Assembly (NCBI GenBank): GCA_002694745.1
Contig: NZMY01000002.1
Location: forward strand, 186,001 to 250,000
Reading direction: 5' to 3'
Length of the DNA: 64,000 nucleotides
From: Croceicoccus sp.
GTDB lineage: Bacteria > Pseudomonadota > Alphaproteobacteria > Sphingomonadales > Sphingomonadaceae
Shown here: in pieces, positions 15,482 through 22,658 of the stretch
Position numbering within the stretch: position 1 is the first letter of the stretch
Layout of the letters: each line of letters opens with the position of its first letter
The notes under the pieces: model-generated
Databases searched by the model: none
Told to the model about the DNA's origin: nothing
The model's input: the letters and a program-made list of their open reading frames with translations, nothing else
Program-made: the position numbers and the translations under genes

Positions 15482-16894
15482 TCAGTCGGCGTCGTCGGCC
15501 CCGTTCGCATCTTTCAGTTCCGCAGCCTTCAGCTCCGCAGCCTTCAGGCGCAGCATAAAGCAATTGCCGCCATTTGTGCCGTGTGCGACCGTCAGGCTTC
15601 CGCCCATCGCCTCCGCAAGGCGGCGCGAAATATGCAGGCCAAGACCGCTTCCGCCGTCATCCTCGCGGCCCAGCCTTTCGTATTTGCCGAAGATCGCTTC
15701 CCTTTCGCGCTCTGAAAGAGGCTTGCCCTCGTCGGTCACGCTGATGGTCGCCCATTTGCCCGAGACGGTCGAATCGACGATGATCTCTCCTCCGCGCGGG
15801 CCATAATCGACGGCATTGCCCAGCAGGTTGAGCAGCACCTGCATGCACCAGCGGCGATCGCCCATGGCGGGCAGAGCGTCGTAGGTTATTGTGAAACGCG
15901 CCTGCCTGCGCGCCGCGCGCGTCGTCTGCAGACGGCAGGCGCTTTCGGCCACTTCGCCCAAAACGATGGGCTCCATTTCCGGTTCGGGATCGTCGGCCCC
16001 ATCGGCCAGCGAATGGGCAAGGCTGCGCAGATGCGTTCCCGCATTCACGATATCGCCGGCGTAATTCACATATTCGCGTGCCAGCGGACCCGCCAGCCGG
16101 TCACGCATGATCTCGCCCATCCGGATAATTCGCCTGACCGGCGCATCCAGCGCGGGTGCCAGCTGTTCTGACAATAAAGTTTCGGGAAGCAGATCTTCCT
16201 CGCTGGCGGGGCCGTCGGATACGATTTCCTCGTGCCGGCGGATCAGGATCTGCTGCCCTGCACTGCCACTGGACCCGCCGCTCAGCATAAGGTGCCAGCG
16301 GCGATCCGAACCCTCGATCCCCGCGATGATGCCGCTGCGAATGCCCCATTGCGACTGCAATGCGCCATCGGTCAGGAACAATGTCGACCAGTTCTGGCCG
16401 CGCTGACGCCGCGCCTGCGCCACCAGAGGTGACAATTCGACGCTTTCCGTCTCAAGCGCGACAATGTTCTGCTGCGCGTCCAGCCACAGCACTGCCTCGG
16501 CAAGCAATTGCTCGATCGCCAACCGCGTTTCGGCCGCCTCGTCGCTTTCGGCCGGTGCCGCCCTGCCTTCGGATGGCGAGGCGGTGTCGACGGCGTGCCA
16601 GTCCGACAGGCGGATCGAACAGCCATCCGCGTCCGGTTCGATCTCTGCCCAGCCCGATAGCGTACCGCCGCTGTACGCGATGGTCAGCGGCTGCGCGATC
16701 TTCATTCCATAGCTGCGCGCCTTGCGCACCAGTTTCAGCAGCGCCGATATCGCGATGACGCCAGGCAGATCGCCGCCGCTGGCCCGCTGCAGCGAGGCCA
16801 GCCGGCCATCCGCGCCCACCAGCCGGTCCTGCGCATCGCTGCGCGCGGTCAGGGGAACGGTCGCGCCGGTCGCCGCCAGAGTGCTTTCGGCCAC
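15482..16894 (-). CDS. Histidine-kinase-like protein (HATPase_c) with degenerate H box
   Basis: N-box NLLGNAVDYGPRGG, G2-like GSGLGLHISRRLAEAMGG; H box replaced (PALDAPVRRIIRMGEIMRDRL). Confidence 0.75.
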   Translation of the reverse strand: MAESTLAATGATVPLTARSDAQDRLVGADGRLASLQRASGGDLPGVIAISALLKLVRKARSYGMKIAQPLTIAYSGGTLSGWAEIEPDADGCSIRLSDWHAVDTASPSEGRAAPAESDEAAETRLAIEQLLAEAVLWLDAQQNIVALETESVELSPLVAQARRQRGQNWSTLFLTDGALQSQWGIRSGIIAGIEGSDRRWHLMLSGGSSGSAGQQILIRRHEEIVSDGPASEEDLLPETLLSEQLAPALDAPVRRIIRMGEIMRDRLAGPLAREYVNYAGDIVNAGTHLRSLAHSLADGADDPEPEMEPIVLGEVAESACRLQTTRAARRQARFTITYDALPAMGDRRWCMQVLLNLLGNAVDYGPRGGEIIVDSTVSGKWATISVTDEGKPLSEREREAIFGKYERLGREDDGGSGLGLHISRRLAEAMGGSLTVAHGTNGGNCFMLRLKAAELKAAELKDANGADDAD

Positions 16895-16896
16895 CC

Positions 16897-17865
16897 CTAT
16901 CCCTCCGGATCGTCGCCGGAACCGGTCGGCCCGCCGGTCAGCAGCGCCTGCGCATCGTTGCCGCGAAGCGCCGCGAAATTGTCGGGCAGGGTGATGTCGG
17001 GATGGATCGCAAAGAATTCGCGCTCGATCTCCTTGTCGCCCAGTCCTGCCGCGCGCAGCGACAGGGCCAGCCGGGCCAACTGGCTCTCCCCGGTCGACGA
17101 TGCGACGTCGTCGCGCGATTCGCCTGTCGTCGCGGCCAGCGCCGACAGGAACACCGCCACGCCCGCATGGCTGACCGACAGCGCGGCGAAGGCCCCTGCC
17201 CCCAGCGCGCGGACTAGCCGGTTGGCGACGGCGATTCGCGTCAGCGATTCGTCATATTCCGAACGGATCGCATGTTCGGCGGTGCGCGCATGCTGTTCGA
17301 AGTTCAAATCCCCCGCGACCACGCCGCGCAATGTGTTGATCACCGCGAACAGGACGTCGGCAGGCAGCTCGACCACGGGCAGCGTCATGCGCTGCATGTG
17401 ACGGACGAACCCGGCCTGCCCGGTCAGCAGATCCATCGCGATCGAGCTGGCATTGGGATCGTCCGCGCTGATCAAAGTCTGCAGCAGCGGCGACAGGGCC
17501 GGATCCATGCCCGCCCGCCGCTCAAGGCTTTCGGTCAGTTGCCATTCCATCGCCACGGCATGGAGATGTTCGAGCAGCATCGGCTCGTCGATCAGGGCGC
17601 CCGCCAGCGGTTCGGACAGATGTTCGACCCATTGCTCGGGATTCTTCTCGCCCGCGGCCTCGGCCAGCCTGATCGCCAGCTGGGCCGCGATGTCGTTTGC
17701 AAGGCCGCGCACCCGCGCGACGATCGCGTCCGAGAACATGGCGCGATCCTCGCACCCGATGATATGGCGCAGCACAACGCCGCGCGCGCCCAGCACCCGA
17801 TCTCCGCGCTTCAGTTCGGAGCGCATGGCGGAAGCGATTCCGCCGGTCTTTTCCAGTTCGCCCAT
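16897..17865 (-). CDS. DUF2336-like protein
   Basis: All-helical Ala-rich protein with DVLFAVINTLRG..., resembling alphaproteobacterial DUF2336 proteins. Confidence 0.6.
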   Translation of the reverse strand: MGELEKTGGIASAMRSELKRGDRVLGARGVVLRHIIGCEDRAMFSDAIVARVRGLANDIAAQLAIRLAEAAGEKNPEQWVEHLSEPLAGALIDEPMLLEHLHAVAMEWQLTESLERRAGMDPALSPLLQTLISADDPNASSIAMDLLTGQAGFVRHMQRMTLPVVELPADVLFAVINTLRGVVAGDLNFEQHARTAEHAIRSEYDESLTRIAVANRLVRALGAGAFAALSVSHAGVAVFLSALAATTGESRDDVASSTGESQLARLALSLRAAGLGDKEIEREFFAIHPDITLPDNFAALRGNDAQALLTGGPTGSGDDPEG

Positions 17866-17888
17866 GGGCTTGGCTTATCACCGTGTGG

Positions 17889-19109
17889 TTAAAGGCGCGT
17901 TAGTTTCGTGCGCCCCGTGCCCGTTTGGAACGTAAGCACAATCCAACCCAGCGCAATGGCTCCTGCGAGCAGCATCGAAAGCGTTACCGGCGCTGCCCAG
18001 ATGGCCGATATCGCCAGCGCCAAACACAGCAGGAACCGGTCGTCCAGCCATGGCCGAATCGGTGCATAGGGAAATTCGTGCGTCGCCAGCCTTAGCAGCG
18101 CGACCGCCATCAAGGCCGCGAACCACGCGGGCGGCCTTGCCAGTCCCGGCCCGCCGTTCACCGCGATGACGGCGACCAGCAGGCAATCGAAGGCCAGGAA
18201 CAGCACCGGCCCCATGTCGCGTCCGCGCGGGCGCATGCGCGACTGGCGGCGCACCGCCTGCAGCACCCGGTGCCCGCGCAGCACCATCCAGCTGAGCCCC
18301 ATGAACAGGAACGCCAGCCAGCCCAGCTGAAAACCGGTCGCCGCCAGCGCGCATCCGGCCAGCAAGAGCCCGACGGCACCCACCAGCATGTCACCGTGAT
18401 CCTGCTCCAGGAGGCGGCTGCCGAATTGCTGGGCGGCATGGCCCGCGATACGCGTGCCGACGGTCTGGCCGCTCGCCTCGGCGATGGTGCTGTCGAGGCG
18501 GCGCTTTTCGGCGGCCTGCGCATCGCCCTCGCTGCGGATGAGGTTCCAGCGTCCATCGGACAGCGCGGCGACATCGACGGGATGCGCCTGCAGCCGCGTC
18601 ATCAACGCAATGCGCAGCAGCGAGGACGCGATATCGCAGTCGCGCGGCAATTCGCGCAGCCGTTCGGCCAGCGAGCCGGGAACGATCATGATGCCCGCCC
18701 ACGCATATTCGGCGTCGATCCGCTCGAATCCGGCGGCGAGGCCCTGTTCGACCGGCAATGTCGCGACTCCGCGCCCGCTGCATAGGTCGAGCGCCAGCGT
18801 CGCGTCGGCCATCAGCGAATCGCCGAACACCAGCAGCTCGTCCGCGGCCGTCACCTCGGCGCAGAGGGCGGGCGCGTCCTGTATGATCTTGGCCGGAAGG
18901 CCCGCCACGCGCGCAGCGCCCAGCATCATCTCGACACGGTCGTCGCCCGGATCGCCCAGCACGAGTATGCGCCTGGCCCCGGCGGCGGCGGCGATTTCGA
19001 GCTGGTGCCGCGCCACCGGCTCACCCGCGACGCGCAGCGCGGCGGAAGGGCGATCGCCCCCCTCCACCAGCTCCAGCATTGGAATGACCGCTATGCGCAA
19101 GACCGACAC
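17889..19109 (-). CDS. Nucleotidyltransferase-like N-domain fused to multi-TM C-domain (possibly degenerate IPCT/DIPPS-like)
   Basis: RVAGEPVARHQLEIAAAAGARRILVLGD resembles an NTP-transferase fold; DGRWNLIRSEGDAQAAEKRRLDSTI linker; about 5-6 TM C-terminus lacking the CDP-alcohol phosphotransferase Asp motif. Confidence 0.5.
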   Translation of the reverse strand: MSVLRIAVIPMLELVEGGDRPSAALRVAGEPVARHQLEIAAAAGARRILVLGDPGDDRVEMMLGAARVAGLPAKIIQDAPALCAEVTAADELLVFGDSLMADATLALDLCSGRGVATLPVEQGLAAGFERIDAEYAWAGIMIVPGSLAERLRELPRDCDIASSLLRIALMTRLQAHPVDVAALSDGRWNLIRSEGDAQAAEKRRLDSTIAEASGQTVGTRIAGHAAQQFGSRLLEQDHGDMLVGAVGLLLAGCALAATGFQLGWLAFLFMGLSWMVLRGHRVLQAVRRQSRMRPRGRDMGPVLFLAFDCLLVAVIAVNGGPGLARPPAWFAALMAVALLRLATHEFPYAPIRPWLDDRFLLCLALAISAIWAAPVTLSMLLAGAIALGWIVLTFQTGTGRTKLTRL

Positions 19110-19382
19110 TTCCCCATGCCCGTCCGGCGCGGCGGGCAGAGCCTCTCATGCGGCGTAAGGCCGGTCTTGCGCAAGATGGTGCGCGTCATCTGTGCATAGG
19201 GAGACGGGTTCCGTGCCGGGGCGACCGCGGCCCCGCTGCGTGGCTGCATGCGATGGTGAACGATTATCCACCGATCCTTCCCCATCGCCGCCGCCGGACA
19301 GCCACAAAACCGCGCGTCAGGCCTGTATCGCGCGGCATTCTGTGCTAGACCGCAAGGTTCAGGATCGGGACGGGCAGAGACC

Positions 19383-22300
19383 ATGAACAGACGGCGCAAT
19401 ATCATCCGCTTTGGACAGGAAGATCAATCGGATATGGCCGACAGCGTCGATGCGGCGGAAGATCGCGACAGCACTGCCGACACCTATGGTGAATCGGTCC
19501 GCAGCGACGGCGGCCAGTACGATCTGACCGAAGACATGGCCTATGCCGACCCCGCGTTCGATGCGGAAGAGCCGCGCCGCGCCGGCTGGATCGTTCCCGC
19601 GCTTGCCGTTGCGGCGATTGCCGCGTGGACCGGATTCTTCGCCTATGCGCAATTTATCGGCGGCGCGATGCCGACCGGCTTTGCGGACTGGTCGGCGCTG
19701 ATCGCGCAATGGTCGATGCCGGTCGCCCTGATCGTCGCCCTGTGGATGCTGGCACTGCGCCACAGCCGCGCCGAAGCCGGACGTTTCGCCGATGCCGCCG
19801 CGTCGCTGCGTAACGAATCCATCGCGCTGGAGCGCAGACTGGGCAAGGTGAACGCCGAATTGTCGATCGCGCGCGAATTCCTGACCTCGCAGGGCCGCGA
19901 CCTTGAATCGCTCGGCCGCATCGCCAGCGAGCGCCTGTCGGAAAATGCCGGGCGTCTGCAGGAACTTATCGTACATAATGGAGAGCAGGTCGACCGGCTG
20001 CATGGTGTGTCCGGCGCGGCGCTCGACAATATGGAGAAGCTGCGCGGGCAGCTGCCGGTGCTGACCAATGCGGCGCGCGACCTCGTCAATTCCGTCGGAC
20101 AGGCAGGCGAAGGCGCGCATGGGCAGATCCAGCGGCTAACCGACGGGTTCGGACGGCTGGGTCAGGCGGGCGAAGCCTCGACGCTGAAGGTGGACGAGAT
20201 GCGCGCCCGTGTGAACGAGGCGCTGGCCGAGTTCGAGCGCTGCGCCGATCAGCTTGGCACGATTGCCGCGGACCGTTTCGCCGCGCTCGATGCCGAGGGA
20301 ACGGTTCTGCGCGAACGGCTGGACCAGCAGGAAATCAACGCGCTGGCGAAGGTGCGCGAGCGTGCGGATTCGATGGAGCGCATCATCGACCAGGCGCGCA
20401 ACCGGCTGGCCGAGGCCGAGATAGAGGCAGTGGATGCACTGCGCGAACGCCTGGCAAGCCTCGATAGCGAAAGCGGCGACATCGCGGCACGCGTTGCCCG
20501 CGGCGAGGCGGAGGCGCTTGAGCGGCTGCGCGACCAGTTGGCCACGCTGGGCGAGGAGGCCGAGCGCCTGTTCGGCGGATTCGACCGTTCGGGCGAGAGC
20601 GCGATCGAGGGCTGGCGCAATCGTCTGGGTGCAGTCAACGACGAGGCGGACGCGCTGATGCATCGCTTTGCCGAAGTCGGGTCCGAAGCGGTCGCCGCAT
20701 GGCGCGAACGCATGGCCGAAGGCGGGCGCGAGGCCGCCACCATGTTCTCCGGCCTCGACCGCAAGAGCGAGGAAACGCTGGAGACCGTGGGATCGCGCGT
20801 CTCGCTGCTGTCGCTGGAAATCGGGCGGCTGCATGGCGAATTGCTCCAGCATGGCGAAACGCTGGAGACCGAGATCGCGGGCCGGATCGAACGCAGCGAA
20901 GCGGCGACGCGCACGCTTGCCGATCGCCTGCGCGCCGGTCTTGAGGCACTGGATGGCGAAATCGAGCAGCGCCGTCAGAAGGGCGAGGCCGCGGGCCGTG
21001 CGCTGACCGAAGCGCTGGCGACTCAGCTGGACGACGTCGACGGGCGGATCGAGGAACGCCGCCTCACCTATCTCACCGCGCAGCGCGAATTCGGCGATGC
21101 GGTCACCGGCCAGCTTGCCGATTTCGACGACCAGATCGAAAAGCGCCGTCAGGCCTATCACGACGTTCAGCGCGAATTCGGCGAAGCGATCGCGCAGCAG
21201 TTCGCCGCCATCGAGCAGGGCTTCGAAGAACGCCGCCTGCGCCAGCTTGCCGCGGGCCGCGAGATGAACGAGGCCGCCGCCGAACAGCTCGACGCGATCG
21301 ACCGCAGCTTTGAAGAGCGCCGCGAGGCGCGGATCGCCGCCGGTCAGGAAGTGCTGCAGACGCTGGACGCGCAGCTGGCCGAGATCGATGGCGAGCTGGA
21401 CGAACGCCGCCGCCGGCATCAGGCGACCAGCGAAGCGCTGGCCCGGCATGCCGAGATCATTGCCGGACGCATCGCCGATTTCGGCAAGCGCATGGAACAG
21501 GTCGCAGACACCGGGCGCGAGGCCGAATCGATCGTCGGCGCGAGCCTTGCCGAGCTGGCAGCCAAGCTGGCCGAAAGCCGCGATGCGCTGTCGGGCACCG
21601 ACAAGGCGGTCCTTGCCCTCACCGACAATTCCGTGCGCCTGCTCGAACTGATCGAGGCGAGTTCGCGGCACACCCGCGAGGCTCTGCCTGAATCGCTGGG
21701 CGAGGCGGAAACGCGCCTCACTTCGGTCGCGGAGCGGATGGAAGGCCTGCGTTCTTCGCTGGGCGAAGCGGGTGAGAACAGCAAGGCGCTCGACACCGCG
21801 GTCGAGACGGCGCGCGACAAGACCCGCGCCGCCATTGCCGAGCTTGAGACGCTGCATGACCGCCTGAGTGAACGCGGCAGCGAGCATGCCGCGCAGATCG
21901 CCGAGCTGCGCGATACGCTCGCCCTTGCGCGCAGCGACAGCGAGGCCATGGCCGAAGCCGCCGAGGCGACGCTGGGCGGCGCGATCAGCCGCCTGGCCGA
22001 GGCAAGCCGCGAAGCCGTCGCCAATATCGAGGGCACGTCGTCAGACGCCGTCCGCGCCATCGCCGAAAAGCTGGCGCATGAAAGCGGCATTGTCGTGCGC
22101 GAGGCCGTCGAGGCCAGCACGCGCGAAACGCTGGAATCGCTGGACGCCGCCGTGTCGCGGGCAACGGGTGCGGCGCGCGATGCCGCTGGCGAACTGGAAG
22201 AGCATCTCAACCGCGTTAACGAGATCACAGGCCACCTCGAATACCGGGTCGCCGAAGCGCGCCGACGGGCCGAGGAGGACATCGACGACCATTTCGCGCG

Positions 22301-22658
22301 GCGTGTGTCCCAGATCACCGAATCGCTGAACTCGACCGCAATCGACATCGACAAGGTGCTGTCGACCGATGTCAGCGACAGCGCATGGCAGGCCTATCTG
22401 AAGGGCGAACGCGGCATCTTTACCCGCCGCGCGGTGCGCCTGATCGACGGCGCGGATGCCCGCCTGATCGTCGAGCATTTCGAGGCCGACAGCGAGTTCC
22501 GCGAACACGTCAATCGCTACATCCACGACTTCGAGGCGATGCTGCGCAACCTGCTGTCCACGCGCGAAGGCAATTCGCTGGCCGTGACCGTGCTGTCGAG
22601 CGATATGGGCAAGCTCTATGTCGCGCTTGCCCAGTCCATCGAAAGGCTGCGTCGCTAA
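19383..22658 (+). CDS. Large two-TM coiled-coil protein with 29-residue repeats
   Basis: Two N-terminal TM segments then about 900 aa of charged helix; 14 in-register 29-aa repeats. Confidence 0.85.
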   Translation: MNRRRNIIRFGQEDQSDMADSVDAAEDRDSTADTYGESVRSDGGQYDLTEDMAYADPAFDAEEPRRAGWIVPALAVAAIAAWTGFFAYAQFIGGAMPTGFADWSALIAQWSMPVALIVALWMLALRHSRAEAGRFADAAASLRNESIALERRLGKVNAELSIAREFLTSQGRDLESLGRIASERLSENAGRLQELIVHNGEQVDRLHGVSGAALDNMEKLRGQLPVLTNAARDLVNSVGQAGEGAHGQIQRLTDGFGRLGQAGEASTLKVDEMRARVNEALAEFERCADQLGTIAADRFAALDAEGTVLRERLDQQEINALAKVRERADSMERIIDQARNRLAEAEIEAVDALRERLASLDSESGDIAARVARGEAEALERLRDQLATLGEEAERLFGGFDRSGESAIEGWRNRLGAVNDEADALMHRFAEVGSEAVAAWRERMAEGGREAATMFSGLDRKSEETLETVGSRVSLLSLEIGRLHGELLQHGETLETEIAGRIERSEAATRTLADRLRAGLEALDGEIEQRRQKGEAAGRALTEALATQLDDVDGRIEERRLTYLTAQREFGDAVTGQLADFDDQIEKRRQAYHDVQREFGEAIAQQFAAIEQGFEERRLRQLAAGREMNEAAAEQLDAIDRSFEERREARIAAGQEVLQTLDAQLAEIDGELDERRRRHQATSEALARHAEIIAGRIADFGKRMEQVADTGREAESIVGASLAELAAKLAESRDALSGTDKAVLALTDNSVRLLELIEASSRHTREALPESLGEAETRLTSVAERMEGLRSSLGEAGENSKALDTAVETARDKTRAAIAELETLHDRLSERGSEHAAQIAELRDTLALARSDSEAMAEAAEATLGGAISRLAEASREAVANIEGTSSDAVRAIAEKLAHESGIVVREAVEASTRETLESLDAAVSRATGAARDAAGELEEHLNRVNEITGHLEYRVAEARRRAEEDIDDHFARRVSQITESLNSTAIDIDKVLSTDVSDSAWQAYLKGERGIFTRRAVRLIDGADARLIVEHFEADSEFREHVNRYIHDFEAMLRNLLSTREGNSLAVTVLSSDMGKLYVALAQSIERLRR
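20340..21557 (+). repeat. Fourteen contiguous 87-bp / 29-codon degenerate tandem repeats inside the coiled-coil CDS
   Basis: Translated units of exactly 29 aa without indels, e.g. VDGRIEERRLTYLTAQREFGDAVTGQLAD / FDDQIEKRRQAYHDVQREFGEAIAQQFAA / IEQGFEERRLRQLAAGREMNEAAAEQLDA / IDRSFEERREARIAAGQEVLQTLDAQLAE. Confidence 0.85.

Follow-up and report, generated by a model that had tools for sequence, protein, structure and literature searches.

Among the described proteins closest to the one considered here, GPR of A. tumefaciens (Atu1348) is described as bearing two transmembrane helices at its N-terminus, a helical rod in the cytoplasm and a C terminus that is essential (PMC8262873), while RgsE of S. 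meliloti (SMc00190), to which GPR is 42% identical, has a published length of 2089 amino acids (PMC7327166). Earlier papers have called GPR "similar" or "analogous" to TipN of Caulobacter crescentus (PMC8546619, PMC13170164), which is reported at 882 amino acids (PMC13170164), and the survey of RgsE homologues covered Rhizobiales, Emcibacterales and Rhodospirillales, with Sphingomonadales not listed (PMC7327166). The present analysis concerns a 64,000-nucleotide stretch of a Croceicoccus genome (hereafter the window), within which an open frame at 19383..22658 on the forward strand encodes a 1091-residue, membrane-anchored coiled-coil protein. We consider it probable that this protein belongs to a family of polar scaffolds, anchored in the membrane and spread across the class, that includes RgsE/GPR and, most likely, TipN, and that its blocks of 29-residue repeats form the part of the rod that varies in length.

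The best-conserved part of the protein is its last 110-120 residues. This C-terminal domain (residues 974-1091; 22302..22655, +) is conserved across Alphaproteobacteria and common to S. meliloti RgsE, and its profile was found in 58 of the 143 genomes sampled across the class, with no corresponding Pfam or NCBIfam family and no convincing match to a PDB chain. Profile A1 matched residues 1972-2088 of the S. meliloti protein LZK74_25975 with 100 bits; this protein has two N-terminal transmembrane helices, is encoded next to cytochrome c1, cytochrome b and petA, and is treated here as RgsE because its length equals the published 2089 residues. Profile-profile comparison linked the Sphingomonadales set to the RgsE-containing set (99.9%, E 1e-33) and to the Caulobacteraceae set (97.2%, E 4e-11), and the latter two to each other (98.3%, E 2e-14). 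As deposited, S. meliloti RgsE (L161:4091-10360) carries the label 'kinesin', and its 3.7-Mb record is labelled plasmid pSymB, with a size and gene content that suggest the chromosome.

For TipN, a C. crescentus PopZ query picked out family f70 and one Caulobacter-like genome whose PopZ was 87% identical. The latter held a single family match, an 885-residue protein that has two transmembrane helices near its N-terminus and whose C-terminal domain is divergent, and a weak C-terminal match (E up to 1) was obtained in 23 of the 41 genomes of f70. The window protein itself carries the homologous domain at its extreme C-terminal end and two transmembrane helices predicted by hydropathy near its N-terminus (residues 67-89 and 104-125; 19581..19757, +), past which the rod is predicted to be cytoplasmic, and this layout, compared by hydropathy only, matches that of RgsE and of most Caulobacteraceae members. 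Judged from sequence, the Croceicoccus gene thus probably belongs to an RgsE/GPR/TipN-type family defined by the common C-terminal domain, with its function read across from the described members. The link between GPR and TipN is not new; what appears to be new, within the literature searched, is the common C-terminal domain and the membership of Sphingomonadales.

A plainer reading would make the protein a generic long coiled coil of the SMC, tape-measure, kinesin or ZorA kind, with an ordinary periodicity and no link to polarity. Matches to TMP_3, ApoLp-III, ZorA and other coiled-coil models are indeed returned by Pfam and NCBIfam, and the S. meliloti member is named 'kinesin' in its record; we rejected the tape-measure (TMP_3), ApoLp-III and ZorA labels on scores under the cut-offs, and the 'kinesin' label as automatic annotation of the S. 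meliloti record. Against this reading, no ATPase, MotA or motor domain was found in the Pfam and NCBIfam scans of the window protein, and the C-terminal domain is specific, conserved and matches that of RgsE. Moreover, SMC arms from eight genomes of the same class, of which six were sampled for the family gene as well, showed mostly heptad multiples and no repeat comb above 4. We hold a generic coiled coil to be quite improbable. The Pfam scan likewise gave no match to SMC_N, the ABC-type ATPase head, and a sequence search of PDB returned nothing significant. Membership in the spirochaete SpiroCoCo/LA_3659 family (NF047514, NF047516) is favoured by a match of NF047516 to the window protein, which reaches 40.9 bits where 36 is the cut-off, but the match lies below the SpiroCoCo_N cut-off, is absent from the L133 ortholog and sits elsewhere along the rod in RgsE. 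This inconsistency between orthologs makes a coiled-coil cross-match likely, and we rejected the label as scarcely credible.

A first-pass annotation had described residues 320-725 (20340..21557) as one array of 14 in-register units of 29 residues, and the period itself is borne out by autocorrelation with BLOSUM scores, which peaks over these residues at lags 29 (z 15.1), 58 (z 10.3) and 87 (z 8.9). The lag-29 signal keeps a z of 7.9 against shuffles that preserve the pattern of hydrophobic, acidic, basic and polar classes, with little or none of it in the flanks (residues 130-319 and 730-1030). The units do not, however, form a single array. Within-block agreement of the units is clear for units 1-6 (phase z 4.9) and for units 7-13 (z 7.5), whereas the consensus of the first block set against that of the second at offset 0 ranks 10 of 29, the best offsets being 11 and 18, and the same split is visible in the unit identity matrix. 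The supposed fourteenth unit (residues 697-725; 21471..21557, +) is non-repeat sequence, scoring -0.67 against the second block, compared with 0.37 to 1.29 for units 7-13 when scored likewise. The region is therefore best counted as 6 + 7 = 13 units in two abutting arrays of equal 29-residue period and spacing: block A (residues 320-493; 20340..20861, +) and block B, of IDxxFEERR type (residues 494-696; 20862..21470, +). No indels were seen inside either block, as first noticed. A literature search returned no described 29-residue coiled-coil repeat like this one.

The hydrophobic pattern of both blocks peaks at 3.625 residues per turn, the value derived earlier from the unit length, with 22.6 times the mean power in block A (reached by none of 2000 shuffles) and 9.5 times in block B (reached by 5 of 2000). 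Each 29-residue unit corresponds to eight turns and, with a helix rise of about 0.148 nm per residue, would therefore span about 4.3 nm. By Fourier analysis the flanks have periods of 3.545 and 3.56, the former in a conserved membrane-proximal coil (residues 130-319; 19770..20339, +) delimited by alignment. Because an undistorted helix has about 3.63 residues per turn (PMC9858780), the blocks are expected to be almost straight, and the near-straight geometry first suggested for this region is thus supported. A whole-protein AlphaFold model draws long helices, though at a predicted local distance difference test (pLDDT) score of only 54.

Comparison of repeat number across related genomes drew on 14 Croceicoccus genomes, 11 in two main clades and 3 in an outgroup clade. 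From the second transmembrane helix to the C-terminal end, the 11 proteins of the main clades measure 982 residues or differ from this by -29, +29 or +58 (953, 1011 and 1040), all multiples of 29, as expected if the rod grows, and shrinks, by whole units; the rule rests on few events (three net changes among 11 species) and is backed by the unit spacing. Profile scanning placed nearly all Croceicoccus unit positions at 29-residue spacing and gave about 3 to 6 block-A and 7 to 10 block-B units in the two main clades, while in the outgroup clade, whose length of 768 falls short by 7 units and 11 residues, it placed only about 2 units of block B. Length differences within and between the main clades are confined to the repeat blocks. 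Some gaps in inter-clade alignments come in odd pieces whose sums are still multiples of 29, and we take these pieces for noise in aligning units that resemble each other. Across the 11 species, total rod length varies while helical register is kept. Conservation of register, as proposed in the first-pass annotation, is thus supported, whereas selection for a single fixed rod length is not, as unit number varies.

Such whole-unit changes might also arise without selection on length or register at the indel level, through unequal recombination between similar 87-bp copies, which would make multiples of 29 a mechanical outcome. This neutral explanation accounts for the confinement of all differences in both main clades to the repeat blocks, and it is consistent with the longest protein (genome G011) having the most similar adjacent copies (20/29 residues, 76% at the nucleotide level). 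Adjacent copies are, however, mostly diverged (best nucleotide identity 56-76% across the genomes scored, all but the last of the set), and simple slippage between the present copies is a weak explanation for that reason. Set against three close relatives, the window gene has ratios of non-synonymous to synonymous substitution rates (dN/dS) of 0.08-0.18 in the blocks, which are thus under purifying selection, and of 0.03-0.06 over residues 951-1091. With about 60% identity between the 11 species, the rod is free of indels outside the repeats too, which argues that indels are generally disfavoured, and lineages settle on units of 25, 29 or 22 residues, each a sum of 7 and 11. Taken together, we regard purely neutral dynamics as unlikely, while still a serious competitor. 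A further possibility is that total rod length, beyond register, is selected, so that the protein would act as a ruler that fixes how large a polar structure becomes, in steps of 4.3 nm. The two main clades, one with 6 + 7 units and the other with two fewer A and two more B units, do share the same commonest total of 982, yet other species of these two clades stand at 953, 1011 and 1040 and the outgroup clade at 768, and a ruler seems to us improbable.

Under the polar-scaffold reading that we favour, the two N-terminal helices would anchor the protein in the inner membrane, the long helical rod would extend into the cytoplasm, and the conserved C-terminal domain would do the work common to the family, for instance in assembly or in the binding of partners. 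The part of variable length would be the 29-residue blocks, with conserved ends on either side. A unit composed as 7+11+11 would make exactly eight turns, and its gain or loss would move the far end by about 4.3 nm with the hydrophobic stripe staying in phase; indels of other sizes would disrupt the bundle and be selected out. The repeats and their period, the changes by whole units, the common C-terminal domain and the transmembrane layout come out of the sequences themselves, whereas we infer the polar location, the oligomeric bundle, the scaffold role and the selective removal of out-of-phase indels, and the localisation and function of the Croceicoccus protein are presumed by analogy with its homologues.

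Several observations weigh against this interpretation. Recombination between repeat copies can give whole-unit indels without selection, and the whole-unit rule is not absolute outside Croceicoccus, as nearest-neighbour pairs from other genera show rod indels of 29, 58, 18 and 22 residues but also of 20, 37 and 98. The 885-residue protein is a candidate TipN by its size, transmembrane layout and uniqueness only. For no Sphingomonadales member did we find data on localisation or knock-outs. The AlphaFold models are too poor for a fold, with a pLDDT of 49 for the C-terminal domain and 54 for the whole protein, and the PF01442 (apolipoprotein A1/A4/E) match present in RgsE is absent from the window protein in the Pfam scan.

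A class sample of 50 members, nearly one per family, places the Croceicoccus repeats in a wider setting. A strong tandem comb was found in 42 of these, with a unit of 25 residues in 34, 29 in 4, 22 in 2, 33 in 1 and 18 in 1, every one of these lengths a sum of 7 and 11. Within the family to which the window belongs, 29 is the sole strong comb (14 of 78), and members elsewhere in the order have mostly 25 (6 of 8). The 25-residue period, equal to seven turns, is the commonest rod form in the Alphaproteobacteria sampled (L144, L219, L153 and 31 others). RgsE has periods of 11/22 and matches PF01442 with 257.8 bits over 12 stretches; the best class-wide PF01442 matches include 11-residue members (G130, which is L145, and G166, which is L142), with weaker ones in others. 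On the basis of these rod patterns, we suspect, as a hypothesis, that the apolipoprotein label follows the 11/22 period. More tentatively, and with the odds leaning the other way, TipN, GPR/RgsE and the Sphingomonadales proteins might be one ancient family in which each lineage remade its rods out of one fixed helical quantum (mostly 25, elsewhere 29 or 22), the number of quanta tuning the reach of the scaffold in steps of about 4 nm. If that were true, the 'apolipoprotein' label of GPR would be the product of an 11/22-residue period rather than a sign of descent from lipid carriers. The present findings also suggest caution in assuming, from its Pfam label alone, that GPR binds lipids.

The remaining features of the gene lie outside the repeats. 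By-eye comparison of ortholog N-termini revealed a short motif, MNRRRNIIRFGQ (19383..19418, +), with the form R-N-I-(I/V)-x-F-G in Croceicoccus and a looser form in other genera. Beyond block B, a conserved segment containing ALTDNSVRLLELIEASSRHTREALP (residues about 725-780; 21555..21722, +; alignment A3) is followed by a distal coil without the 29-residue repeat (residues 781-950; 21723..22232, +). The whole protein has matches in 58 of the 61 genomes searched, mostly in related genera of the order.

The neighbourhood of the gene also varies across the family. A small Hpt-like gene adjoins the family gene divergently in 64 of the 72 named Sphingomonadales loci, a count taken from the position of the second transmembrane helix since stop-to-stop frames start upstream of the real start. 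S. meliloti has such a divergent neighbour (L161:3105-3473), its Hpt domain confirmed by Pfam and the pairing extending from Rhizobiales to Sphingomonadales, and others stand at loci L145, L157/L201, L159/L206 and L160, while no Hpt gene was found upstream in most other class members tested. The neighbour is absent beside all Croceicoccus copies examined, and a close Hpt relative is absent from the nine Croceicoccus genomes tested and present in three sister genera; in the window, the intergenic interval 19110-19382 upstream of the gene, where other genera carry Hpt, holds no Hpt frame. A putative phosphorelay may link the Hpt gene and the family gene. Before the gene, on the reverse strand at 15482-19109, lie a histidine kinase (HATPase_c) and two proteins without a Pfam match, and a similar gene order is annotated in Sphingomonas parapaucimobilis (L162).

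With published RgsE homologues mainly from Rhizobiales and GPR and TipN so far "similar" or "analogous", a common and as yet unnamed C-terminal domain would unite GPR and TipN as one family with Sphingomonadales included, and would be a defined target for structural and interaction work. The whole-unit changes amount to a natural experiment in which a long helical scaffold alters its length with register kept, and the Croceicoccus species provide ready-made length variants. RgsE and GPR are like the window protein in their two N-terminal transmembrane helices, their C-terminal domain and the very long helical cytoplasmic rod predicted for it, but they are 2089-2115 residues long against 1091, their rod has a period of 11/22 and PF01442 matches where the Croceicoccus rod has 29 and no PF01442, and the S. 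meliloti rgsE locus has the divergent Hpt neighbour that the Croceicoccus locus lacks. The TipN candidate likewise has two transmembrane helices and the C-terminal domain, in 885 residues, but it is without 29-residue blocks and its domain is much diverged. Scy and FilP of Streptomyces are likewise coiled coils of polar growth and division, and their rods have expanded through non-heptad (hendecad) repeats (PMC9858780). A DivIVA-like motif stands at their N-terminus, whereas the window protein is anchored by transmembrane helices and drew no DivIVA match from the Pfam scan. SMC arms, too, change coil length in preferred in-phase steps, although these are heptad-based and of about 100 residues (PMC5344682), in contrast to the non-heptad step of 29 residues found here.
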